A DNA stretch of 20,007 nucleotides from a virus: the IMG/VR virus record IMGVR_UViG_3300035070_000125, positions 1 to 20,007 of that record, one strand, 5' to 3'. Of this stretch, positions 1 through 18,884 are shown piece by piece. The position numbers and the translations under genes are program-made. Numbering within the stretch: position 1 is the stretch's first letter; each line of letters begins with the position of its first letter. The notes under the pieces were generated by a model. It ran no database searches, was not told the DNA's origin, and saw only the letters and a list, made by a program, of their open reading frames with translations.

Positions 1-1235
1 GGTACCCAGAAGTCATGCACTATGCCAAACGCGGCCTCTTGCTGTACTACGGCGCGAACACCCGGCATATCCCTAAATAACGTAGCCAAGGAACCCGAGC
101 AGGCGACAATCACGTCACAGCCTTTCTTGACCATGTACCGTATCATTCCGGCGCAGTGTATCTGGTCGCCCAGACCGCCTTCCATGTTGAGTAAAATAGT
201 ACCCTTACTTACCCCGTCCCACATCGGTGTGGGTACTCTGGGCGGAGGATTACCGAAGACGCTTTCATGGCGACCACGGAAAATAAGTTTATGCCCGTCT
301 AGCAAGTTACCACGGCGTATCTCGTACCAACCACGGTTAAAGGCCGCGCGGTCATTCAAAGGCTCTCTAAACCCAAGCTCGTCACCAATCTTAGCCGCCT
401 CGTCCAAGTTACCCATAAGGCCCTGAGACAGCATAATATCAAGCTGATGTACGGGCAGGTTAGAAGTCTGCTCCCCACGCCAAAAACGCGGTTGAACAAA
501 GCCACGGTACATGTGCTCTAAGGTGTCCTCGGCAGACTGGGTGTCAGCTTTCTTGAGCTTCTTACGGACGTTGTGCAGGCCCTGCACTTGCCAAACTTCT
601 TCGTCTTTCTCTTGCAGGTTGGAGGCGTCGATGTTGTTCAGATCGTAAGTATGGGGCGTAAGCTCCAAGAACTCTTCAATACCACGCAGCACTTCTTCGG
701 GCTTGCTTACTAGGTCTTCGTATTCGACGTAGTGTATGCACTCCTGTGAGAAGTTATGTGCGCCAAGCAGGGTTTGATACGACTGCTTTACGTGGTCCAC
801 AAGGTCAGAGGTACGCAAGAATTCAGTAAGATTGTCAGGCTTTGCCACACGGACCATAGAGGCCACGCAGTCTTCGACATTACGCACAGTAGCAATAATC
901 TTAGGCTTGTACCCGAGCACGTTGTACATAGTAGGCATGTTAACTTCAGAGGCCCAACTACGTGCTTTGTCGAGGATTACCGGCTTGTCGATGTCGGCGT
1001 ATTTGCTTTCGCAAATGGCTTTTAGTACTCGCTGTATTTCTTTCTCTTGTACCGTGTTGTCCTGCGTACTGGACTGTTGGCTAATAGAATCTGCCCACGC
1101 CTTTAACGTGCCCACGAGCATATCCAACAAACCCGAGGTAGCTGTGGTGTGCATCTCGGGGTGCTGCTGTAGTAACGCCGCCAGTACCGTAGAACCTGAG
1201 CGGGGTAGACCTGATAGGAAGTATATTTTTTTCAT
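1..1235 (-). CDS. Sulfotransferase fused to TPR/GT9-like glycosyltransferase (3' part missing)
   Basis: The frame opens at ATG 1235 and runs off the left edge after 411 codons. Residues 1-215 look like a PAPS-dependent sulfotransferase: SGLPRSGST (8-16) fits the 5'-phosphosulfate loop, TVRNVEDCVASMVR (116-129) fits the 3'-phosphate site, and YVEYEDLVSKPEEVLRGIEEFL (split at 169-190) is the usual late helix. Residues 258-325 look like a TPR-type helical hairpin (FNRGWYEIRRGNLLDG at 299-314). From about 330 the pattern of TPR-linked GT9-like glycosyltransferases follows: MWDG (338-341), ILLNMEGGLGDQIHCA (347-362), then a Rossmann-like stretch to HDFW. Predicted roles are sulfate transfer and sugar transfer; acceptors are unknown. 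It starts 17 bases after the propeller gene with only a weak ribosome site. The sulfotransferase call is firm; the second domain rests on remembered family patterns. Confidence 0.82.
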   Translation of the reverse strand, partial: MKKIYFLSGLPRSGSTVLAALLQQHPEMHTTATSGLLDMLVGTLKAWADSISQQSSTQDNTVQEKEIQRVLKAICESKYADIDKPVILDKARSWASEVNMPTMYNVLGYKPKIIATVRNVEDCVASMVRVAKPDNLTEFLRTSDLVDHVKQSYQTLLGAHNFSQECIHYVEYEDLVSKPEEVLRGIEEFLELTPHTYDLNNIDASNLQEKDEEVWQVQGLHNVRKKLKKADTQSAEDTLEHMYRGFVQPRFWRGEQTSNLPVHQLDIMLSQGLMGNLDEAAKIGDELGFREPLNDRAAFNRGWYEIRRGNLLDGHKLIFRGRHESVFGNPPPRVPTPMWDGVSKGTILLNMEGGLGDQIHCAGMIRYMVKKGCDVIVACSGSLATLFRDMPGVRAVVQQEAAFGIVHDFWV

Positions 1236-1251
1236 AAGTTGTTATTTACTT

Positions 1252-2700
1252 TTAAGCATCCTTAATTGCATACACTTGCTCAAAGCCTGTGCCAACATTA
1301 CTCCAAGTAGTTAGCGACCCTATTTGTATGGGACTGTTTTTAATTAGATAAACAGTGTTATCGCCTAATTGCCCCGACGCGCCGTAGCCCCAAGCCCATA
1401 AAGTACCGTCGGTTTTAACTGCAACCGAAACTTCTTTCGTTACCCTTGTTTGCGCCCAATTAGTTAAGGCCCCTATTTGCACCGGACTACTTACGTTAAC
1501 TGAGCTTCCGTTACCTAGTTTACCGTTGGAGCCTTGTCCAAGCCCCCAAAGGGTCCCGTTAGTTTTTATAAGCATAACGTGGTAGCCGTTTTGCCCATAG
1601 TCGGCCCAATTGGTATCAGAGCCTATCTGCACAGGAGAAGACCGTTTAATCGTGTCGTTTTGGCCTAAATTCCCTGTGCTGCCACTTCCCCAAGCCCAAA
1701 GCGTGCCATCTGTTTTAATAGCAGTACAGAATGGGTAACCTCCCGCAGCAGGGCCTCCCGCTTTATACCAATTGGTATCCGTCCCTACTTGTACGGGGGA
1801 AGAGCGGTGTACCGAGTAGCCAGTATTTTGACCTAAAGCACCGTGGCGACCGTCCCCCCAAGTCCACAAAGTGCCGTCGGTTTTAATTCCACAAACATTG
1901 ACTCCTGTGCCTGCCGCGACATAGGCCCAATCGGTATCTGCCCCTACTTGTACAGGAGAAGAGTAGCCTATTTGGTTGTTTTGCCCTAATTGCCCGTAGT
2001 TATTTTTTCCCCAAGCCCACAACGTACCATCGGTTTTAAGTGCAAAAGTACTGTACGTGCCTATAGCTACCAAACCGCCCCACGTAGTTAAAGCGCCTAC
2101 TTGTACAGGAGAAGAATAGGAAATACCCTCGTTATTTTGGCCCAACATCCCGTCATTAGCTCGACCCCACATCCAAAGCGAACCGTCAGTTTTAATGGAC
2201 GCTGCGGCGTTTGTGGACGCTGTACTAAACGGTCCCCAATCGGTAAGCGCGCCAATTTGTGTGGGTGAAGAAATGTTAATGTTGTTAGTGTTTTGCCCCA
2301 TCGCCCCGTTATTATCTCGACCCCATGAATAGGCTTCGGAGGGACTAGAAGGAACCACTGAATTACTCGCTGCACTTGCCGGACCTGTTCCCGTGCCGTT
2401 AGTAGCCGTTACGGTAAACGTATAAGACGTACCTCCGGTCAACCCGCTAACAACAATAGGCGAAGCAGAACCCGTAGCGGTAATAGAGCCGGGGCTTGAC
2501 GTAACAGTGTAGGACAAAGTGGCGGGATAGCCGGGGTTAGCAGGCGCGGTAAAAGCAACCGAAGCGTTTAAAGGTCCCCCAGTAGCCGTACCAATCGTAG
2601 GCGCACCGGGAACCTCGGGCCATGTACCTGCGCCCTTGGCTTGTGCTGCTTGCGTCACGGTCCACTGACCGGAGAATTGTTTCCAAATTTGGCTTGGCAT
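1252..2700 (-). CDS. Fibronectin-III-like domain plus seven-repeat RCC1-like propeller, probable virion adhesin
   Basis: This 482-residue protein begins with a short motif (MPSQIWKQFSGQW) of the type seen at the start of marine phage tail proteins. Residues about 30-116 look like a fibronectin type III domain (VPGAPTIGTA, then LTGGTSYTFTVTATNGTG). Residues 120-482 hold seven RCC1-like repeats of about 50 residues, each with LGQN, SSPVQVGALTDW and KTDGTLWAWG-like segments. The final copy ends at YAIKDA and lacks its WAWG strand, while the first copy starts with AYSWG, so the ends could close a seven-bladed propeller. There is no signal peptide or transmembrane segment. A GAGGG ribosome site precedes the ATG. 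Place among virion genes suggests an exposed tail or fibre protein binding a host surface; the RCC1 role in eukaryotic Ran exchange should not be transferred. Confidence 0.88.
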   Translation of the reverse strand: MPSQIWKQFSGQWTVTQAAQAKGAGTWPEVPGAPTIGTATGGPLNASVAFTAPANPGYPATLSYTVTSSPGSITATGSASPIVVSGLTGGTSYTFTVTATNGTGTGPASAASNSVVPSSPSEAYSWGRDNNGAMGQNTNNINISSPTQIGALTDWGPFSTASTNAAASIKTDGSLWMWGRANDGMLGQNNEGISYSSPVQVGALTTWGGLVAIGTYSTFALKTDGTLWAWGKNNYGQLGQNNQIGYSSPVQVGADTDWAYVAAGTGVNVCGIKTDGTLWTWGDGRHGALGQNTGYSVHRSSPVQVGTDTNWYKAGGPAAGGYPFCTAIKTDGTLWAWGSGSTGNLGQNDTIKRSSPVQIGSDTNWADYGQNGYHVMLIKTNGTLWGLGQGSNGKLGNGSSVNVSSPVQIGALTNWAQTRVTKEVSVAVKTDGTLWAWGYGASGQLGDNTVYLIKNSPIQIGSLTTWSNVGTGFEQVYAIKDA

Positions 2701-2705
2701 TACGA

Positions 2706-3863
2706 CTACCCTCTAATCCCGTAAGACGAATAACGACCCGGTGAAGCATCTATCCAATTTGTATCCGCTCCAATTTGAACCGGGGAAGAGTACCCTAAAT
2801 TAACGTCGTCTTGCCCAATTTGACCCCGAGAATTGTCCCCCCAAGCCCACAAAGTTCCGTCGGTTTTAATGGCAAGGAAAGCTCGGCAGTACCCACCTTC
2901 AACCTTGTCCCAATCGTTTAAAGCCCCTACTTGTACTGGCGAGGAATAATTTATTGCGTTATTTTGCCCTAACAAGCCCGCAATATTTTCTCCCCACGAA
3001 TAAAGTTGGCCTGACGCATTTACCGCTAAGCAAGTACCGTCTTTACCCACTGCAATATTTGTCCAATTAGTTAAAGCGCCTATTTGAACGGGAGAAGAAC
3101 GACTAATTAAATCGTTTTGCCCTAGTTGACCTAAGTTGTTTCTACCCCAAGCCCACAAAGTTCCGTTTGTTCGTAAACCCAGTGAAAAAACTTCCGCCTG
3201 TTGTGCGTCCAACCAAGTTTCCGCCCCCACTTGTACTGGGGAGGAGCGCCGTGCTGTAGCTCCGCTTATGTTAATGCCAAGCTCTCCGTAAACAGAGCCT
3301 CCAGAGGCGTATAAAGTCCCGTCAGTTTTAATATAAAAAGCCGCATTTTGACCCATCATAGCGGAAGCCCAGTCGGTATCCGAGCCTACTTGAATGGGAG
3401 AAGACACATTAACATTCGTTCCTTGTGCAAGTTTTCCGGCATTACCGGAACCCCACGTCCACAAAGTTCCATCAGGTTTTATAGCTCCAGCGCTTTGTTG
3501 GTTTACATCGAAAAACGCCCAATCGGTTAACGCGCCTACTTGAATGGGGGAAGAGGTGTTAGACGTTGCGCCCGCTGTGTTATTACCACTAAGTCCGGAC
3601 GATAAGTATCCCCACACAAAAATACTACCGGGGTTTTTACGCGCTCCGGCACAGTATTGACCGCCCGACACGTTTAGCCATGTTCCCCCTGAGCCGACTT
3701 GAGTAGGCGATGATCTATCTATGGTGTCGTTTAAACCTAGTACACCAATAGAAAAAACGCTACCGTTGTCCCCCCAAGCATATAAAGGCTGCGGTGCAAA
3801 TTCCCCCGGAGTCAACGGGTCAAAGTAGGCTTGGATAAATCCGCCTTCCCATCTATTAGACAT
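2706..3863 (-). CDS. Seven-repeat RCC1-like propeller, probable virion adhesin
   Basis: This 385-residue paralogue of the next gene downstream has a short N-terminal part (MSNRWEGGFIQAYFDP) that may dock it to the virion. From about residue 26 it holds seven RCC1-like repeats with the same SSPVQVG, TDW and DGTLWAWG signatures. The first strand LYAWG at the N-terminus and the incomplete last copy ending YSSYGIRG again fit propeller closure. Repeats 1 to 3 are the most diverged (for example KNPGSIFVWG and KTDGTLYASG), whereas the later ones are close to consensus. AAGGAG lies just before the ATG. It ends five bases before the second propeller gene starts, so the two are probably co-translated. 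A tail or receptor-binding role is inferred from context; the fold itself is well supported. Confidence 0.88.
   Translation of the reverse strand: MSNRWEGGFIQAYFDPLTPGEFAPQPLYAWGDNGSVFSIGVLGLNDTIDRSSPTQVGSGGTWLNVSGGQYCAGARKNPGSIFVWGYLSSGLSGNNTAGATSNTSSPIQVGALTDWAFFDVNQQSAGAIKPDGTLWTWGSGNAGKLAQGTNVNVSSPIQVGSDTDWASAMMGQNAAFYIKTDGTLYASGGSVYGELGINISGATARRSSPVQVGAETWLDAQQAEVFSLGLRTNGTLWAWGRNNLGQLGQNDLISRSSPVQIGALTNWTNIAVGKDGTCLAVNASGQLYSWGENIAGLLGQNNAINYSSPVQVGALNDWDKVEGGYCRAFLAIKTDGTLWAWGDNSRGQIGQDDVNLGYSSPVQIGADTNWIDASPGRYSSYGIRG
2839..3166. repeat. Direct DNA repeats inside the propeller genes
   Basis: A 22-base stretch is identical at 2839-2860 and 3145-3166, 306 bases apart, which is exactly 102 codons or two propeller repeats. 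It encodes the conserved LWAWG strand. Imperfect copies of the same stretch occur near 1388, 1688, 1857, 2009, 2161 and 3453, thus in both propeller genes. The spacing keeps the reading frame, so recombination between copies would remove or add whole blades. The repetition follows protein repeats and is not a separate mobile element. Confidence 0.8.
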
Positions 3864-3873
3864 ACCCTACTCC

Positions 3874-4254
3874 TTACGAGCTAGAGATCGCTTCGTAGCT
3901 AATAGTGTAGCTGATGCCGCTTGCCGTGCCGCTAGTGACTACGATGGACTGGTCTTCCATTAGGTAAATCGCCGTGGTCTTATCCGTTACGATAATAGAC
4001 GCATCCGCAGGGACTGACACCGTAGAGACGACAGGGTAAGAAGTACCCGCACCCGCCGCCGCGTTGTTTATAGCCACAGTGGTATCCACGGCGCTTGTGC
4101 CGTTGACGTTAGCCGCTACGATTTGGTTGATCTTAAGTACGTCACCAGAAGACGCCGCGTTAGACAGAAGCACGTTAGCTGCTGTGTCCGAGGGAGTCAG
4201 GAACGTCGTGTTTCCTAAAATGCTTGTTACGCTTACTATATTGGGGTTAGCCAT
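3874..4254 (-). CDS. Small beta-rich virion-type protein, unknown role
   Basis: This 126-residue protein is rich in Ala, Ser, Thr and Val and has no Cys, signal peptide or membrane span. It begins MANPNIVSVTSILGNT and contains alternating beta-type segments such as SIIVTDKTTAIYLMEDQSIV. Similar short proteins occur among the structural genes of marine phages and cyanophages as I recall, usually unnamed. A strong AGGAGAAGG ribosome site precedes the ATG, and it starts 10 bases after the 204-residue gene upstream in transcription. Its place between a fibre-like protein and the propeller proteins suggests a tail or surface component. Function is not identified from sequence. Confidence 0.75.
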   Translation of the reverse strand: MANPNIVSVTSILGNTTFLTPSDTAANVLLSNAASSGDVLKINQIVAANVNGTSAVDTTVAINNAAAGAGTSYPVVSTVSVPADASIIVTDKTTAIYLMEDQSIVVTSGTASGISYTISYEAISSS

Positions 4255-4264
4255 TTACCTTCTC

Positions 4265-4879
4265 CTAGAATCCCATGACCATCGCAAGAGCGATGCTTAG
4301 TCCGGCGGATATGCCCGCGCTACCATATTCCAATGCGGTGCCACCGCTGTTTACTACGAGTGCTTGACCTGCTGTACCTAGAGTACTTAGGTTTGTACCG
4401 CCGTTTGCTATGGGAAGCACACCGGTTACGCCGGTAGCTAAGTTTACTACGCCCGTTGAAGCATTAGCGTTAAATACCGCAGCGCCTGCACCCGCACCAT
4501 CTGTGACGACCATTGTTTTGTCGCCGTTAGCTATGTCTACCGTAGCACCTGAGCCTTGCTTGATCGTAATGATCTGGCCGCCAGTAGTAGCGTTCTCAAT
4601 AATCCACGTCTTAGATACCGTGTTTGGTCCAAGAGTAATCTCACGAGTCGCTGTTAGCGATACTGCCGAAGTAAACTTTAAGTACAGAGAGCGCGTGGCA
4701 TCTGCTGTCGCGTCCGGCATGGTGAAGGTTTCGTTAGCGTCAGCCGCTATTTCCTTCGTGCCGTAGCTAAAACCGTCGGTAATCAGCTCAAGGTTAGTGT
4801 TAGTACTGGTGCCCCAAGTGCCGTCTTCATCACCCGTGGTGATTTCTTTGAGCCGTAAGTTATTTACATAAGTAGCCAT
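4265..4879 (-). CDS. Tail-fibre-like virion protein
   Basis: This 204-residue protein has the N-terminal pattern MATYVNNLRLKEITTGDEDG followed by TWGTSTNTNLELI, which I associate with a common marine phage structural family. The middle part (about 75-140) is beta-rich: LTATREITLGPNTVSKTWIIENATTGGQIITIKQG. Near the C-terminus, VTGVLPIANGGTNLSTLG (about 158-175) is a motif found in many phage tail fibres before the distal part. The end, ISAGLSIALAMVMGF, is hydrophobic but too short to claim membrane insertion. GGAG precedes the ATG at a good distance. It is probably a tail fibre or baseplate-type protein; the receptor is unknown. Confidence 0.8.
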   Translation of the reverse strand: MATYVNNLRLKEITTGDEDGTWGTSTNTNLELITDGFSYGTKEIAADANETFTMPDATADATRSLYLKFTSAVSLTATREITLGPNTVSKTWIIENATTGGQIITIKQGSGATVDIANGDKTMVVTDGAGAGAAVFNANASTGVVNLATGVTGVLPIANGGTNLSTLGTAGQALVVNSGGTALEYGSAGISAGLSIALAMVMGF

Positions 4880-6470: not shown

Positions 6471-7100
6471 TTAACGCGGGGTTATACGGAGTTGACCAGA
6501 GCGGTACATATCTTCCCGCATCTTGCCGTCCCCTAAGTTTTTGAGTAGCGCCATAGCGTCTACGTACATACTCTGGTAAAGCTGGATCATATCCGGCTCA
6601 CCTTTAATGAAGCGTATTGCCTCAACCAGAGCACCATTTAACAGCGCAGAATCAAACTCATTGCCAAGCCACGTAGTGCCCGCAGTAACAATAGACTCTG
6701 GGTAGTAGCCGTAATGAAGCTCCACCTCGTATGATGCGTCTGGTGTTGGGCCTATGATAAACGCTGTGTCATCAAAAAGACCGTAATGTCTCGGCGTCCC
6801 AGTGCTAGTAGGTCCGGGGTAAGCCTCGCGGATGAAGTTAACATCCTTATTCAGCAGGTACTCGTAGTTGCCCTGAGCGTCAATAACCGCCAAAGAGAAC
6901 GGATACAAGAAGTCTGTCGGGAACACCAAGTACTTATTTCCAGAAGTCAGGTTACCAGTCTGGTTACGACGCAAAGCCGGTATCTGAACAGTGTTATAAA
7001 TCTTCTGCTCAGCCTGATCTGTAAACATAGCAAGTTGGTCGTCCGTAAACGACTGCTCGCAGATGTCCTCAATATTTGTCTTCAGCTCGGTGTAATTCAC
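6471..7100 (-). CDS. Head-tail adaptor protein, SU10-adaptor-like
   Basis: The frame starts with GTG at 7100, supported by AAGGAG upstream, and encodes 209 residues. It is mostly helical at both ends, with TELKTNIEDICEQSFTDDQL (3-22) and NGALVEAIRFIKGEPDMIQL, around a beta-rich centre (YLVFPTDFLYPFSLAVIDAQG, split, and AFIIGPTPDASYEVELHYGY). This layout fits phage adaptor proteins of the SU10 type that bind beneath the portal in short-tailed phages. A second adaptor-type gene lies upstream at 7659-8363. The assignment rests on remembered family pattern and gene order; a connector or tail-completion role is the alternative reading. Confidence 0.78.
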   Translation of the reverse strand: MNYTELKTNIEDICEQSFTDDQLAMFTDQAEQKIYNTVQIPALRRNQTGNLTSGNKYLVFPTDFLYPFSLAVIDAQGNYEYLLNKDVNFIREAYPGPTSTGTPRHYGLFDDTAFIIGPTPDASYEVELHYGYYPESIVTAGTTWLGNEFDSALLNGALVEAIRFIKGEPDMIQLYQSMYVDAMALLKNLGDGKMREDMYRSGQLRITPR

Positions 7101-7658: not shown

Positions 7659-8363
7659 CTACCTCACGCCATATATACGCGGCACCAAGCTAAGTGTGGC
7701 TTTCTCTCTATCTTCACCCGCAGCTAACTCAAACTGACGCTCGTACTCGGCCTGTAGCATAGGAATACGTGGCATTAACTCAGGGTCTTTTTGCGCTATA
7801 TAATACGCAAGCCCTGCAACGAGGCAGGGCAAGAAACGGAAGTTAACGTCTGCTGTGTTTACCCCTGTACCGGCATCTTCAATACGACGCATACGCCAAT
7901 ACTTAAGGATGTAGTAAGGCGCTACAAGCGTGCCTTGATCTGGCACCGGCCATACTGTTGCTGTTGGGTTAGCCTGCCCACGGTCTATGTACATCTGGAT
8001 GGGGCGGCCTTGGTTTAGCTTGTTAGGGATGCTGGAGTACGTAGAGACGCTGATTCGAGTAATGTTTAGGTCAGACTGAGTGCTGATGTTGCCATTACCC
8101 GTACGCACTACGTGCTCTAATAAATCTATAGTATCTGCTGGCAGGTCATAAGTGGCTGTGCCTTGAGCGAGGTTTAACGTGCCCTCTTCAATAGTCCACA
8201 TGTTAATGCCACGGTTCTGCCACTCGATAGTCAACAGGTTCATGGAACGACGAGCAGTACGCAGGTCATAACCAGAACGCATTTCTCTACCGGCACGTTC
8301 CCACGCTTCTTCCGCAATCTCGGTGAAGTCCATGTTAAACGCTGTAGTGCCAGAAGTTGCCAT
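7659..8363 (-). CDS. Head-tail adaptor, P22 gp4-like type
   Basis: This 234-residue protein has a helical N-terminus (FTEIAEEAWERAGREMRSGY at 13-32) followed by RRSMNLLTIEWQNRGINMW. A beta-rich centre then carries TYDLPADTIDLLEHVVRTG and YIDRGQANPTATVWPVPDQG. A helical C-terminus (FLPCLVAGLAYYIAQKDPEL, MLQAEYERQFELAAGED) completes it. The LTIEWQNRGINMWTIEEG region followed by a DLP segment matches what I remember of gp4-like tail accessory or head-completion proteins of short-tailed phages. It is in the right place, downstream of portal and capsid genes. Its ATG overlaps the preceding TAA (TAATG). Two adaptor-type genes near each other support a podovirus-like neck. Confidence 0.8.
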   Translation of the reverse strand: MATSGTTAFNMDFTEIAEEAWERAGREMRSGYDLRTARRSMNLLTIEWQNRGINMWTIEEGTLNLAQGTATYDLPADTIDLLEHVVRTGNGNISTQSDLNITRISVSTYSSIPNKLNQGRPIQMYIDRGQANPTATVWPVPDQGTLVAPYYILKYWRMRRIEDAGTGVNTADVNFRFLPCLVAGLAYYIAQKDPELMPRIPMLQAEYERQFELAAGEDREKATLSLVPRIYGVR

Positions 8364-10348: not shown

Positions 10349-10861
10349 TCACTTAATTCGGGTCTCGTAAATGTTCTTTACCCACCACATGAACATATCT
10401 TCGCCAAGGGTGTGTTTCATGGTATTTACCCTAGCAGCAACTAGCTGTACGTTTTCCCGTACGTAGGGGCCTTGGGGATTTATGCGGTCTATCGAAGCGT
10501 TAAAGTCTTTCTGCTTCCTATCGCCGTAAGTGCCGTCTCTTTGGTGGGTCATGAGCATACCAGATAGGGCACACTTACCGTCTTGCATTTCCCACAGGTC
10601 AATAAGGTCTTCTGTGGTCAGTTCGTAATCAACACCCTGCTTAACGCGTTGAGATTTTAACTGCGTATTTAATACTCGGAGGTACGACTCAGGGGTAGCA
10701 GAGGTCTTTCTTGCCCTTTGTAGGGTAACGCACTGCTGACACACACCACGAACAAAACCTTCTTTGAAGTGCTCGAATTGTGATACCAGCTTAGTTTTGT
10801 TGCACGAAGTGCAGATTCGAGAGCCTTGTGACTCTTGCTTTACTTTAGGTTCTCTAGGCAT
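10349..10861 (-). CDS. Free-standing HNH endonuclease with N-terminal zinc ribbon
   Basis: This 170-residue protein has a zinc-ribbon-like start with Cys17, Cys20, Cys41 and Cys44. The nuclease part covers about 86-165: GKCALSGMLMTH (95-106), NASIDRINPQGPYVRENVQL (121-140), then ARVNTMKHTLGEDMF. The SIDRINP.GPY..ENVQLV arrangement is typical of small phage HNH nucleases of homing type; the first His of the classic triad is not obvious, as in related forms with DR at that place. It would cut double-stranded DNA at a specific site. AAAGGTAG precedes the ATG. It lies between two terminators right after the major capsid gene, which suggests an inserted selfish gene or moron with its own expression control. 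Confidence 0.9.
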   Translation of the reverse strand: MPREPKVKQESQGSRICTSCNKTKLVSQFEHFKEGFVRGVCQQCVTLQRARKTSATPESYLRVLNTQLKSQRVKQGVDYELTTEDLIDLWEMQDGKCALSGMLMTHQRDGTYGDRKQKDFNASIDRINPQGPYVRENVQLVAARVNTMKHTLGEDMFMWWVKNIYETRIK

Positions 10862-10923: not shown

Positions 10924-11832
10924 TTAAGCGCCCGGTGAACCGAAGATACCCAGTGGGTCAGATACGCCGAAGCTGTATCGCTCACGAGCCTTATATCGGC
11001 TGTTGCCTGTGTCAAAGTCTGCGTCCATGCTAGTTTGCATAGGTGAGCGGACAAAGTGCTTCAGGCCGTTAGGTACGTCAGTCATCAAGAACCACGCATT
11101 GGTGTCAGTCAGGTAGTTATTTACTGTATAACCACCGGGGATTGAACCGTTGTTGCGGATTGCGTTGATGTCGTTATCGGCTGTAGACACACGAAGCTCA
11201 GTATCCAACAGGCGAGTAGCAACGAATTGCAGCGCAGGTGGGATTACAAGCTTAGAGGGCTTAGCAGCGATAAGGAGACCACGCTCATCAGTCCAACCAG
11301 CGATCTGGATAACGGCAGCTTCGAGTGAAGTTTCGTTAAGATCGGCTGCAACAGCAGGACGGTTTGAGTTAGTTCCACCAGAAACTAGTGGGTGGTCAGT
11401 CGCACACAAAGTCTTGCCATCACCGTATGTAGAGCCAGCAGCAAAAGCGTTGTTGAGGATTGAAGCACCCTTAACTTGCTTAGTGTAAGCCATACCACGG
11501 GCCAGAGCCTTCGTGTAACGTGAAGAGAGTGAATCGTAGAGGTTATCTTCGATTGCTTCCTCAGTTAGCGAGAAGCCCATAGCGATTGTCTCGTGAGTGT
11601 AACGAGCAGTCCACGCTTCTTGCGCGTTGTCATACTCGATTGCAGAACCTTCACCCTTAACAGGCGCGGCACTGAAACCGGACAACTTAGTTTCTTCTTC
11701 GAAAGAACGGTCAGAAGACTCAGTCTCGAAGATTTCGGCAGCCTCATCACCATACTTAGCGTATTCGAGACCAAAGAGGGCGTTTAGACCCGGTAGTAGC
11801 TCCTTAAGGAGTTGCGCTCTTGAAATAGCCAT
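10924..11832 (-). CDS. Major capsid protein, Mu gpT-like HK97 fold
   Basis: This 302-residue protein carries the layout of gpT-like major capsid proteins. It has an N-terminal arm (RAQLLKELLPGLNALFGLEY at 5-24) and a strand block around YTHETIAMGFSLTEEAIED (78-96). A conserved loop, CATDHPLVSGGTNSNR (143-158), precedes DLNETSLEAAVIQI. A later stretch reads KLVIPPALQFVATRLLDTEL. CATDHPL with a following Ser/Asn-rich segment is the feature I trust most. It lies after scaffold and decoration-type genes and is followed by a strong terminator, as expected for a highly expressed gene. AAGGAG precedes the ATG. Processing of the N-terminus cannot be judged; no protease gene is seen nearby. Confidence 0.87.
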   Translation of the reverse strand: MAISRAQLLKELLPGLNALFGLEYAKYGDEAAEIFETESSDRSFEEETKLSGFSAAPVKGEGSAIEYDNAQEAWTARYTHETIAMGFSLTEEAIEDNLYDSLSSRYTKALARGMAYTKQVKGASILNNAFAAGSTYGDGKTLCATDHPLVSGGTNSNRPAVAADLNETSLEAAVIQIAGWTDERGLLIAAKPSKLVIPPALQFVATRLLDTELRVSTADNDINAIRNNGSIPGGYTVNNYLTDTNAWFLMTDVPNGLKHFVRSPMQTSMDADFDTGNSRYKARERYSFGVSDPLGIFGSPGA

Positions 11833-14621: not shown

Positions 14622-14773
14622 TATCTTCCCTGCCCTCTATATTCTTTGAAACTGCGACGTTTGTGTTTGTTCATTGAGCCTACCTTCAAAGCCCCGTTGC
14701 CAATGCTGGTGCCTTTAACACCTTTGTTTAGCTGTAGGGCTTCTCCTGAAGTAATGCCTGACTTTTTAGCCAC
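14621..14773 (-). CDS. Small basic 50-residue protein with GTG start
   Basis: The frame starts with GTG at 14773, inside the last codons of the portal gene, and ends with a TAA that overlaps the next ATG. It encodes 50 residues: (M)AKKSGITSGEALQLNKG, VKGTSIGNGALKVGSMNKHK, RRSFKEYRGQGR. The portal's final codons supply AGAGGA as a well placed ribosome site. It is strongly basic and fills the space between two real genes exactly, with overlaps of eight and three bases. No family is recognised; a packaging- or head-associated small protein is a guess from context. Confidence 0.72.
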   Translation of the reverse strand: MAKKSGITSGEALQLNKGVKGTSIGNGALKVGSMNKHKRRSFKEYRGQGR

Positions 14774-17225
14774 CTTGCGGTCCTCTTGGTTGTTGAGCTT
14801 TAGCTAAGTCCATTATCGCCTTCGCTTCGTCCAGATCGTTCTTGGCTTGGGCCTGTTCATTTTGTGCGGCTATACGGCTAGACTCAATGGCAGCGGTAGT
14901 TTGGGCTTTCTGCGTATCCAACTGTAGTCTTGCGGCGTCAATAGCTGCATCTGCTTGATCTTTCTGGGCTTTACGCTGTATCTCTTGCTGCTTAAGCTTA
15001 AGTTCTTCTTGCTGCATCTGAATAAGCGGGTCTTGCATCTTCTGCTGTGCAGCAGCTTGTGCGGCTTGGGCCTGTTTCTGTTGAGTAAGCTGTGTGCCCG
15101 CATCAGAGATAAGTCGCGCAAGAAGTACTTCGTCTTTCTCATCGAGTTCTTGGTTAGGTGCAGGTAACGGCACACCAAGTTTTTGTTCCATCTGACTTCT
15201 ATAGTCAAAGGCAATATGCTCAGCAATATGCGCGTTTAATGCGGCCATAACTTGTTGCGCTGCTGGGTTCTGCCCAACAAATGCTGCTATTTGGGGGTCT
15301 TGCATAAACGCTTGGTGCGTAGCAATATGTGCCGCATGGTCTTGATATATAAACGCTTTTACCGGTTTCCCGACTAGGACATTCATATTCTCGCTAACCG
15401 GATCGGAAGGCTTGATGTCATCCTTGGTAGGTACGAGCTTGTCGGCGTTCTTGATACCCAAGACCTCGATCATCTGGCGATGAAGCTGCGGTAGGTCATA
15501 GATTTGTGGGGTGGCCTGTGCCATTTGCAACACGGTTTGGTACTGGACCACTCGTTGGGCCATCGTGCTGCTATTGGGGTCGCTGACAGGAATTACTTCC
15601 ACCATAGCGTAGTCGGCTTGTCTAGCACGAGGCTCGCCACGGTCAGGCACATACATATACTCCGTAGGCGCATACTCAGCGATGATTTTTCTCAGGAGTT
15701 TAAACTCCTGCTTCATCGAGAAATGGACGCGGGATTGCACCGCAGCCATTGGCTTTAGAGTACGCTCTAGTAGAGCGAGGGTAGTTCCAACAGGAGCATT
15801 AGCACTCATGTCGGATATGTTCATGTCAGAGATTGCGCCCAAACGTCGGCCTTCTTCTGTGATCTGCTGCAATAACGCAAGAAGGGTTTGGCTGGGTTCT
15901 TTATAAGGCAGCGGCATAATGTTGTCGCGGATGCTGCCAGAGGGTACGTCTACATCGCGAAATTCGCCGGGACCAATCGGTGTGTCGTCGCCCTTAACTC
16001 GTAGTCCGCGAGACTTGAGACCACCGGGGAGATTGGATAGGGTTCCAGCGTCCACGAGTTGACGGATAATACTAGTGCCAGCTTTAGCATAACCACCAAT
16101 AATATGAATGAGGCCGAGTCCATAAAATCCAAATCCGGGTACGTAAGCATAGTGTACGAAATGTTGACGCTTAAGCATCAGTGGGTCGTCAATATTCCAG
16201 TTACGTCGTATAGCTAGAATCTTGCCTGTACCCTTCTCAAGCGTTACCACATAAGGCTTTGCAATCTGTAGGTCATCGTCGTCATCTTCAGCATCTACAC
16301 CGTCAATAATCAGGTCAGCGTGGACCTCAAGTATGGTGTAACGATCATCTGAAGTAAGTGATATGCCAGATTGCTCTGCTTTCGCCTCTTCCACATCTGT
16401 AAAGAAAGATACTGGGTCTCCCAATTCGACTTCGCGGTAGAATCCAGCAGCCTGAAGTTTTATAACTTCGTTCTTAGTCTTGCGCATGACGTGCGTAACA
16501 CGCTCTGCGGACTCAATATTAGAGGCACCGTAGGGTACAATTACGTCTTCAGCAGGGATATATAGGGCCGTCTGACGCCCCATATTGGGGTCAAAATACA
16601 CCTTTTTGAAGGCAGAACCAGCCAAACCAAGGCTATATAGTAGCCTCTCATGTTCGGGGCGGTATTCTACCATAACCTCAGTTAATTCATAGTTCATATC
16701 CGTCTTAACACGCAGCGCTGCATCTTCCTTCTCTTGAGTCATTTCCCCAAGAATCTTTGTCTTAACAGGACCGGCAGCAGGGAACGTCTCACTCATGGCC
16801 TCAGCTTGGAACCGAATAGCCGCTTCGGCTAGGATGTTGCTGTAAACACCACAGGCATTTTCCCAAGGCTCAGTGCGCGCTTCGTACTTCATACCTAAAA
16901 CATCAAGACCGGCAACGTAGCTGTCTGCCCAGTCACGTCGAGCTGAAGTATCTGCGTCAATGGCTTCTTCTAAGTCCCCAGATATTTCTTGTAGCTGGCT
17001 GTCTTCTAGGTACTCAGCGAGGTTGGCATCAAAGGGCGCCATATCTACGTCTTCGTTTTCTTCTCCGAAGCTGATCTCAACACTGCCGTCTTCAAGCTCT
17101 ACCATGACAGGCATGTCTTCATCGGTGGCGATAGCCATCTCGATCATGGCGTCGGGTTCACCCATTGCGTTTATTTCGTTTTCTATGCCTTCGGGCATTC
17201 CGTACAAACCTTTTTCAATAGCCAT
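14766..17225 (-). CDS. Portal protein, P22-like long form
   Basis: This 819-residue protein has an acidic leader (about 1-90) and a portal core. Motifs include EPWENACGVYSNILAEAAIR (about 119-138), YRPEHERLLYSLGLAGSAFK, HYAYVPGFGFYGLGLIHIIG and APVGTTLALLERTLKPMAAV, followed by a helical block. APVGTTLALLERT, seen in the clip-stem helix region of many portals, is the strongest cue. From about residue 692 to the end it is a long Gln/Ala-rich coiled coil (QQKMQDPLIQMQQEELKLKQ), like the barrel of P22-type portals. The portal is the dodecameric ring through which DNA enters and leaves the capsid. AAAGGAC lies before the ATG, 13 bases after the terminase stop. The length is at the long end for portals. 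Confidence 0.93.
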   Translation of the reverse strand: MAIEKGLYGMPEGIENEINAMGEPDAMIEMAIATDEDMPVMVELEDGSVEISFGEENEDVDMAPFDANLAEYLEDSQLQEISGDLEEAIDADTSARRDWADSYVAGLDVLGMKYEARTEPWENACGVYSNILAEAAIRFQAEAMSETFPAAGPVKTKILGEMTQEKEDAALRVKTDMNYELTEVMVEYRPEHERLLYSLGLAGSAFKKVYFDPNMGRQTALYIPAEDVIVPYGASNIESAERVTHVMRKTKNEVIKLQAAGFYREVELGDPVSFFTDVEEAKAEQSGISLTSDDRYTILEVHADLIIDGVDAEDDDDDLQIAKPYVVTLEKGTGKILAIRRNWNIDDPLMLKRQHFVHYAYVPGFGFYGLGLIHIIGGYAKAGTSIIRQLVDAGTLSNLPGGLKSRGLRVKGDDTPIGPGEFRDVDVPSGSIRDNIMPLPYKEPSQTLLALLQQITEEGRRLGAISDMNISDMSANAPVGTTLALLERTLKPMAAVQSRVHFSMKQEFKLLRKIIAEYAPTEYMYVPDRGEPRARQADYAMVEVIPVSDPNSSTMAQRVVQYQTVLQMAQATPQIYDLPQLHRQMIEVLGIKNADKLVPTKDDIKPSDPVSENMNVLVGKPVKAFIYQDHAAHIATHQAFMQDPQIAAFVGQNPAAQQVMAALNAHIAEHIAFDYRSQMEQKLGVPLPAPNQELDEKDEVLLARLISDAGTQLTQQKQAQAAQAAAQQKMQDPLIQMQQEELKLKQQEIQRKAQKDQADAAIDAARLQLDTQKAQTTAAIESSRIAAQNEQAQAKNDLDEAKAIMDLAKAQQPRGPQGG

Positions 17226-17237
17226 GTTAGCTGTCCT

Positions 17238-18884
17238 TTAGTAAAATCCGCCGCGATGCCTATAGAGAGGCTCGCTTTCCGCTTCGTCCGTTGGTAGGGA
17301 AATAAATCCGCCTTGACGAAAACGCATCAATGCCATTATGGTAGTATCCACCAAGTCATCGTTAGACATAAACGGAAAACCTGCTACTTCTTCTACTAGC
17401 TCTTCCGCCCAACGTGTTTGGGGAACCCACACAAGTCCAGATCGTACTATATCAGCAACAGAGTTTAAACGCGCAGTTTTATCTCCTGATCCTCTGTGCG
17501 GTGTATATTCCTGCACCATCAGCCCAGACCTACGCATCTCCTGATACAGTGGTGTACCACTACTCTTCTTCTCCACAATAAACGCATCCGGCTCCCACTC
17601 GTTGTACTGCTCCCAAGCCAACTCTTTTAGCTCTGGAAATTCAAGCCGCTTCTTTATAGAGTTAAGCAGGATGATACAGTAACAGTTCTCCTCCTCATGG
17701 AAGAAAACGCCCCACGTAGTGAGTGCCGTGTAGTCAGCCCTATTGTTCTTTTCGGCCGCCGCGTCAAGCGTCATGATTATATATTCACAGCTGGGCGGGT
17801 CTTCGTGGGGCCATTCCTTCCACCACTCGCGCTTAACCATTGCGGCTTCTTCTGCCGTAGGCTTCTGCTGATACTGGGCATTCCACTGGAACACCGGCAT
17901 TGACGCTTTAGTTCTGTACAGGGCATCAAGATCAAAGAACTCAGGCCACAGCGGTTTCTCGATAGTCTTGTGTATGGTTAGCAACCGGTTCTTAGGGTCA
18001 GGTACTTCCGACTCTACTTCTAAAATCGCTGGAAATTCAACAACTTCGTACTTATCTGCCAGCTCATTCTGCGCCATATCCCGAACCACGCGCCCAGTCA
18101 GGTCATCCAAGTGCCAACTGGTCTGTACAATAGCGATCCGCCCGCCGGGCATGAGACGAGTACGGGCACCGAACGTAAACCATTCGTACGCTTTGTCGAA
18201 AACATCCAAGTTACCGCTAATAATGTCTTGTTCGTTATGCGGATCGTCTACCAAAAGCAAGTGGGCGCCACGACCGGCAAGTGCTGAACCCACACCACAA
18301 GCAAAATACTCCCCACCCGCACTGGTGTTCCATCGTCCTGCGCTTTTTGAGTCCGACGCTAGCTGTACTGTAGGGAATATGGCCTGATACTCGGGGGTAG
18401 ATATGAGGTTTCGCACTTTTCGACCAAAATCTACAGCAAGATCAGTAGTATGCGAGACCATCAGCACCTTTTTATCTGGGTTACGCCCCAAAAACCACGC
18501 CGGAAAGTAAATAGAGATAAGTTGGCTCTTGCCATGACGCGGGGGCATGTTCACACAAATACGATCTTGGCCTGTTCCCTCTACATCCTCACCGTCTGGG
18601 CCGTATTCTTTACCCCGCTCGATGTCCATAAGCATGTCAGCTAGGATTCGGTGGTGTTTTCCTACCTTATAGTCAGTCTGCATAGCCTTACAGAATTCAA
18701 TTAAGTCCTTATATGCCGCTTCGGAGCGCTGCCTAGCCTCTAACTCCTCTACAATCTTTAATATCTCGGCCTGTTCATCGGGAGTGTAGTTATCTAGGTT
18801 TTTTAAGAGCAGGTCTGCGTCCGCAGCAGTAAACTGTGTAGGTTTTGGTATAACCTTTAATATAGTTCTACTACTTCGACCCAC
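17238..18884 (-). CDS. terL: Terminase large subunit
   Basis: The 548-residue protein starts with GTG at 18884, overlapping the Cys-rich gene by 14 bases. The ATPase part shows a Walker A-like MPPRHGKS (113-120), a Walker B HLLLVDDP (208-215) and a coupling-type QTSWH (254-258). The nuclease part shows a first acidic strand, IIMTLDAAAEKNNRADYTAL (369-388, Asp374), a second with FIVEKKSSGTPLYQEM (435-450, Glu438), and a third near DDLVDTTIMALMRFR (509-523, Asp513). This is the usual order of TerL proteins with an RNase H-like C-terminus. It drives ATP-dependent DNA packaging and cuts the concatemer. Headful or cohesive-end cutting cannot be decided from this. All key motif residues appear present. 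Confidence 0.96.
   Translation of the reverse strand: MGRSSRTILKVIPKPTQFTAADADLLLKNLDNYTPDEQAEILKIVEELEARQRSEAAYKDLIEFCKAMQTDYKVGKHHRILADMLMDIERGKEYGPDGEDVEGTGQDRICVNMPPRHGKSQLISIYFPAWFLGRNPDKKVLMVSHTTDLAVDFGRKVRNLISTPEYQAIFPTVQLASDSKSAGRWNTSAGGEYFACGVGSALAGRGAHLLLVDDPHNEQDIISGNLDVFDKAYEWFTFGARTRLMPGGRIAIVQTSWHLDDLTGRVVRDMAQNELADKYEVVEFPAILEVESEVPDPKNRLLTIHKTIEKPLWPEFFDLDALYRTKASMPVFQWNAQYQQKPTAEEAAMVKREWWKEWPHEDPPSCEYIIMTLDAAAEKNNRADYTALTTWGVFFHEEENCYCIILLNSIKKRLEFPELKELAWEQYNEWEPDAFIVEKKSSGTPLYQEMRRSGLMVQEYTPHRGSGDKTARLNSVADIVRSGLVWVPQTRWAEELVEEVAGFPFMSNDDLVDTTIMALMRFRQGGFISLPTDEAESEPLYRHRGGFY

Follow-up and report, generated by a model that had tools for sequence, protein, structure and literature searches.

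A phage sulfotransferase-glycosyltransferase fusion encoded beside RCC1 genes: a candidate enzyme for the modification of virion propellers

At one end of the window, the complete 20,007-base IMG/VR virus record analysed in this study, lies a gene that joins a sulfotransferase, a TPR-like linker and the beginning of a glycosyltransferase. This fusion is a new architecture of known domains, and it belongs to a cassette of which no description was found in the literature searched; the same search yielded no description of phage sulfotransferase-glycosyltransferase fusions. With a probability of roughly 0.55, we read its product as an enzyme with two activities, part of a mobile cassette, by which the phage's own RCC1 propellers would be glycosylated and sulfated. 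What we observed in this regard are the fusion, the folds of its domains, their conservation and purifying selection, the linkage to RCC1 genes and the existence of unfused and permuted versions. More tentative, and somewhat short of even odds, is the wider reading that a mobile cassette of podovirus-like phages, T4-like phages and cyanophages, echoed in Patescibacteria contigs, employs the fused enzyme to put sulfated sugars on virion propellers.

All major genes of the window are encoded on the minus strand, in the order terminase large subunit, portal, major head protein, other late genes, two RCC1 genes and the fusion. The features referred to below are as follows.

3..1235, minus strand: sulfotransferase-TPR-glycosyltransferase fusion gene, initial 411 of ~612 codons, running off the contig
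591..1235, minus strand: predicted sulfotransferase domain, residues ~1-215, Sulfotransfer_3 with TPST-like fold
1188..1211, minus strand: 5'-phosphosulfate (PAPS) loop GLPRSGST, residues 9-16, invariant
858..884, minus strand: 3'-phosphate-binding motif R118...S126, both ends invariant
246..473, minus strand: TPR-like helix pairs, residues ~255-330, from the predicted model of relative L003
3..218, minus strand: start of the GT9-like GT-B domain, residues ~340-411 (first ~72), C-terminal half off the contig
156..179, minus strand: GGLGDQIH motif, residues 353-360, resembling SMGDVLH of WaaC
1252..2700, minus strand: RCC1-repeat beta-propeller with fn3-like N-terminal part, the proposed substrate
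2706..3863, minus strand: second RCC1-repeat beta-propeller (Pfam RCC1 131.6 bits; phrog_4219 1e-29)
3874..4254, minus strand: small protein of the same gene run, cluster c6, in 18 of 36 related loci
4265..4879, minus strand: phrog_31104 protein, function not assigned, in 24 of 36 related loci
10924..11832, minus strand: major head protein (phrog_371 7.8e-21)
14766..17225, minus strand: portal protein (phrog_1216 2.1e-25)
17238..18884, minus strand: terminase large subunit (phrog_38 1e-98)

An earlier note on this DNA had assumed a phage, and the terminase, portal and major head protein bear this out. Terminase and portal are nearest to HTVC023P, HTVC027P, 023Pt_psg01, Pag-Yong1 and like phages (42-45% identity), the portal being 42-44% identical to those of the pelagiphages HTVC023P and HTVC027P. 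Two further minus-strand genes, at 6471-7100 and 7659-8363, both exceed the Pfam cut-off for the SU10 adaptor, which suggests a duplicated head-tail adaptor. Directly after the major head protein gene, an Endonuclease VII/HNH-like gene (10349-10861, minus strand) looks like a homing endonuclease insertion.

The fusion gene forms a single unbroken frame of 411 codons, read on the minus strand from 1235 to 3 and still open where the contig ends. Full-length relatives comprise 585-620 residues, and the second half of the protein lies largely beyond the window. The C-terminal ~200 residues of the glycosyltransferase, off the contig here, are visible in relatives such as L003, a protein of 612 aa with 96% identity to the window protein over the shared part. 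The sulfotransferase, described before as near-complete, kept its domain identity, while the extent had to be corrected: the sulfotransferase is complete and it is the glycosyltransferase that is cut. Since the window ends within the gene, an assembly artefact had to be considered. However, the order sulfotransferase, TPR-like helices, GT9-like glycosyltransferase recurs in 72 viral loci, which come from many independent metagenomes and fall into 41 protein clusters at 95%, with pairwise identity down to 44%. This count stems from a separate scan in which the TPR-glycosyltransferase half alone served as query, and covers viral loci whose frame is readable. In 71 of them both parts share one frame. 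The remaining locus, L097, holds both parts separated by a frameshift; as its sulfotransferase is present in another frame, we rejected L097 as a natural glycosyltransferase-only version. Because 71 of 72 loci hold both parts in one frame, a contig-join artefact is excluded, and the probability that assembly created the fusion is negligible. The earlier claim of two domains on one uninterrupted frame is therefore confirmed and cannot be put down to chance, and the join artefact it had allowed for between residues 230 and 330 was looked for and not found.

The fusion gene is under strong purifying selection. Compared with the closest relatives, dN/dS is ~0.05-0.09 for the sulfotransferase part (dN 0.03-0.06 and dS 0.35-0.65 against the three nearest) and ~0.03-0.08 for the glycosyltransferase part. 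It is low across the junction as well, the linker and TPR-like part giving similar values. In one contig (L014/L033, 6001-7875), ~37 residues of the sulfotransferase are duplicated in tandem, either naturally or through an assembly error.

Residues 6-193 match Pfam Sulfotransfer_3 (PF13469) at 75.2 bits, well beyond the cut-off of 27. Across 20 relatives the PRSGST of the PAPS loop is unchanged and R118 and S126 are invariant, so that the sulfotransferase with both nucleotide-binding motifs seen in the earlier reading holds. According to Foldseek and VIA-align, the nearest solved folds are the protein-tyrosine sulfotransferases TPST1/2, followed by the sulfotransferase domains of CurM/OLS; residues 1-212 of the L003 model superpose on TPST1 with a VIA-align Z of 15.7 (198 aligned, 3.7 A). 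In a HMMER alignment, a mapping by sequence only, Thr33 occupies the place of Glu99, the catalytic glutamate of TPST2. Tyrosine sulfation as the specific reaction is not claimed, because this TPST base is replaced by Thr. Judged by profile, the first half is filed as a predicted PAPS-dependent sulfotransferase of the Sulfotransfer_3 family and not as a member of the TPSTs.

The linker and the second half were characterized on an AlphaFold2 model of L003, built with 20 relatives. Its confidence is mostly 80-90 in the glycosyltransferase, mostly ~55-88 in the sulfotransferase and <50 in the linker at 203-260. The model places helices at 264-273, 277-290, 295-307 and 311-320. Among TPR profiles none exceeded the Pfam cut-off, while L163 and L166 matched TPR_16 weakly (E 0.02-0.03). 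Since no TPR model reaches the cut-off, the predicted linker is only likely to be a TPR; as for the TPR hairpin proposed earlier, the model shows helix pairs of TPR type.

For the second half the fold comparison is decisive. Residues 345-587 of the L003 model align with WaaC at a Z of 15.6 (230 aligned, 3.2 A), and against the GT9 heptosyltransferases WaaC, WaaF and TibC the scores range from 15.6 to 14.4 (Foldseek, VIA-align). A glycosyltransferase fold after residue 330 had been set as a test beforehand, and structure prediction found it; together with the GGLGDQIH motif, the WaaC-like fold of L003 also bears out the GLGD-type, GT9-like region noticed at the outset. Profile-profile comparison with WaaC/WaaF gave a short local match only, four full-length relatives searched up to E 5 did not match Pfam Glyco_transf_9, and no Pfam family describes this half of the fusion. 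Both GLGDQIH and SCTSVAHL are preserved. D357 of GGLGDQIH is invariant, and the GD was matched by motif, not by residue-level superposition, to SMGDVLH of WaaC, whose Asp13 is catalytic. The half further has a ..HL.AA.G motif. At the position of WaaC Asp261, which sits in a DTG..H motif, a Cys is found throughout (SCTSVAHL); bacterial relatives were picked using a SCTS search pattern, and its conservation there is partly by construction, whereas the viral sequences were found with other patterns. In its predicted fold, the second half is thus GT9-like, yet we do not file it as a member of GT9.

The gene directly upstream of the fusion, separated by 16 bp, encodes the first RCC1 propeller (Pfam RCC1 155.7 bits, RCC1-like domain 244 bits, phrog_4219 4.5e-35), and phrog_4219 is the best-matching family for both RCC1 proteins of the window. 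This arrangement is general: of 36 distinct viral loci, 33 have an RCC1-repeat gene as the immediate same-strand neighbour upstream, and RCC1 genes occur at or near the fusion gene in all 36, with the RCC1 assignment checked by Pfam in sampled phage and bin loci. Often the upstream gene overlaps the start of the fusion gene by 1 or 4 bp. The window-like RCC1 protein is rare among phages, with matches in 9 of 50,697 records, while four of the twelve records that match the fusion protein also match it (chance p ~2e-13; ~4e-10 after removal of a duplicate). That such proteins belong to virions is known from other phages, not from this one. In phage W70, phrog_4219 RCC1 proteins were detected in purified virions by mass spectrometry (PMC11370258), and GAP_001 of phage GAP32, which bears a RCC1 domain, is a structural virion protein (PMC5259590).

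The genes after the fusion vary among loci, and all are drawn from one common set. It comprises a ~140-residue protein, another RCC1 protein, a GT25, an APS-kinase-like protein, often with an adenylyltransferase-like part, as well as GT32-like, Methyltransf_24 and weakly GT2-like proteins, and in some loci UDP-galactopyranose mutase, a cupin, a HldE-like adenylyltransferase and a HldE-like kinase. Most cassettes include the APS-kinase-like gene plus further glycosyl- and methyltransferases. In 30 of 36 loci, the ~140-residue protein (cluster c2; L004 7787-8212 and relatives) comes directly after the fusion gene, whose end it overlaps in some; it is possibly a tail-fibre chaperone. In the same gene run, a lipase-like protein with a GHSLGG motif was seen (L019 8421-9191).

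The APS-kinase-like domain, which lies outside the window, resembles APS kinase in fold (Z 15.9), and its best 26 fold matches consist exclusively of APS kinases and of enzymes that include a domain of this type. The Pfam APS_kinase cut-off was passed in seven of nine phage records, while the protein missed the NCBIfam apsK equivalog cut-off with 22.5 against 138.7 bits. Since fold and Pfam agree and the stricter NCBIfam cut-off fails, PAPS supply by this gene is likely rather than certain. Its C-terminal part was considered as an ATP sulfurylase and rejected, as it resembles NMN adenylyltransferases. One locus (L024 12170-13586) encodes parts similar to HldE domain II (heptose adenylyltransferase, 164.9 bits) and, on the other side of a cupin, domain I (kinase, 110.6 bits). 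GmhA is the first enzyme of ADP-heptose synthesis, and a search of nine phage records for SIS_2 gave no match to it. With GmhA not found in these nine records and HldE-like parts in some only, a full heptose pathway is not claimed.

The core of the cassette is found in three records of phages with the portal type of the window (phrog_1216) and in two with T4-type portals (E ~1e-177). Because it occurs with both, the core appears to move between phage types. Unfused versions exist as well. In cyanophage S-SRM01, a TPR-glycosyltransferase gene starts 36 bp behind one RCC1 gene, and a sulfotransferase gene 18 bp behind another. Marine virus AG-345-E08 carries RCC1, sulfotransferase and GT25-like genes consecutively, with a TPR-glycosyltransferase gene in the same run, and BUCT-ZZ01 a row of annotated tail fibre, hypothetical, RCC1 and TPR-glycosyltransferase-methyltransferase genes. 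In reversed order, glycosyltransferase before sulfotransferase, the fusion occurs on two Patescibacteria contigs (L166 5947-7899, Nomurabacteria; L167 4273-6225, Taylorbacteria), the former behind three RCC1 genes; in trees of both domains, with mixed support, these reversed fusions fall outside the phage-type fusions. Domains that are fused in both orders and are also neighbours show a classic sign of working together, and on this ground we propose that sulfotransferase and glycosyltransferase do so. A further Patescibacteria bin contig encodes, behind a RCC1 gene, a protein of 1,349 residues (L164 1649-5698) with the domain order sulfotransferase, TPR-like, GT9-like, methyltransferase, TPR and GT41 (OGT-like). 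Contigs of this kind from metagenome bins may be misbinned phage.

How might such an enzyme act? A single protein of the late-gene cassette would combine an N-terminal PAPS-dependent sulfotransferase, a short TPR-like adaptor and a C-terminal GT-B (GT9-like) glycosyltransferase, and its targets would be the RCC1 propellers encoded directly before and after it. These are proposed because RCC1 proteins are virion proteins in W70 and GAP32, together with gene adjacency, which does not prove a substrate. The TPR-like part would most likely hold the propeller. The GT9-like domain might then transfer a sugar whose nucleotide-linked donor is possibly ADP-heptose or similar; the HldE-like genes of some relatives fit such a donor, though the records examined contain the pathway in part only. 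The sulfotransferase would sulfate either this glycan or the protein itself, prior to assembly or in its course, with PAPS supplied in most relatives with the help of the APS-kinase-like protein. Elaboration of the glycan could follow through GT25, GT32-like and GT2-like proteins and methyltransferase, joined in some relatives by UDP-galactopyranose mutase or HldE-like proteins. The phage might benefit through altered adsorption or by shielding its receptor-binding part. Catalysis by both halves, the RCC1 acceptor, the reaction order, the donor sugar and the benefit are what we infer here. Given Cys for D261 of WaaC and Thr for Glu99 of TPST, the enzyme may use a different donor and acceptor, or have an altered domain.

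The same two replacements, and the failure of full-length relatives to match Pfam GT9 even at E 5, would also suit an enzyme of which one half only is catalytic, for example with the GT9-like half binding glycan or RCC1 while the sulfotransferase acts, or the reverse. We consider this improbable, since nucleotide-binding motifs are kept in both halves, purifying selection acts on both and the fold is complete. More weight, while still unlikely, is due to the main rival reading, in which sugar and sulfate are added to the host surface (LPS, capsule or another glycan) and thereby block adsorption of other phages or free new virions. GT9 heptosyltransferases such as WaaC act on LPS, and it is WaaC that the glycosyltransferase half matches in fold; moreover, the HldE-like kinase/adenylyltransferase and UDP-galactopyranose mutase of some cassettes are typical of surface glycan synthesis. 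However, the tight pairing with RCC1 in unrelated phages, whether fused, unfused or permuted, speaks against a host target, as does the position of the fusion gene at the end of the late structural run. In addition, flippase, polymerase and membrane anchor were not found among the annotated cassette genes, the annotation being partial. Decoration of the phage's own virion is favoured over host-surface modification. Both roles had been suggested in the earlier note: that of the phage's own tail proteins is the better supported, through the RCC1 adjacency in 33 of 36 loci and the virion proteins of W70, whereas modification of the host against rival phages gained no specific support.

A role in auxiliary metabolism independent of RCC1, with a free small molecule as product or a lipid as target, is highly improbable. 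The folds of sulfotransferases and glycosyltransferases are permissive, and phage sulfotransferases have been listed as AMGs of unclear function (PMC10580990, PMC12285232), yet such a role leaves unexplained the RCC1 linkage, the two-domain fusion and the co-location with glycosyltransferases and methyltransferases.

Sulfotransferases in phage genomes have been reported without known role, as stated outright in PMC10580990. Fused, unfused and permuted forms, nearly all beside RCC1, provide a testable proposal for what both enzymes act on. If it is true, phages encode a route to sulfated virions, of which no report was found in the literature searched; glycosylated and sulfated propellers would represent a new kind of chemistry on the phage surface, one that bears on adsorption and host range. 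The question is testable now, as unfused or related forms occur in S-SRM01 and BUCT-ZZ01, both isolated phages whose hosts are in culture.

Among known systems, virion glycosylation in mycobacteriophages is similar in that glycans are placed on phage virion proteins, whereas there the glycans sit on capsid and tail tube subunits instead of RCC1 propellers, and the passage that cites this work (PMC12619734) does not mention a sulfotransferase. With Sulfotransfer_3 and TPST1/2 the fusion protein shares the predicted fold over residues 1-212, the PAPS loop and the 3'-phosphate motif, but differs from TPSTs in Thr33 for Glu99 and in the attached glycosyltransferase. It resembles GT9 heptosyltransferases in its modelled GT-B fold, a GD..H near the domain N-terminus and ..HL.AA.G in the C-terminal half, and differs in the missing Pfam GT9 match, the Cys at the place of D261 and the TPR-like part and sulfotransferase in front. 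TibC is a GT9-type enzyme that glycosylates a protein. The stand-alone phage sulfotransferases (S-SRM01 QPX48310, S-SKS1, L039-L079) have a related domain of ~250 aa, which adjoins RCC1 in S-SRM01 and AG-345-E08; they are unfused, and in the tree their main clade branches apart from the fused sulfotransferases. In the TPR-glycosyltransferase proteins (S-SRM01 QPX48303, BUCT-ZZ01 UTS52179, L173, L174), a TPR or TPR-like part is followed by the same GT-B domain; these bacterial and phage proteins come without the sulfotransferase, and some end in a C-terminal methyltransferase-like part instead.
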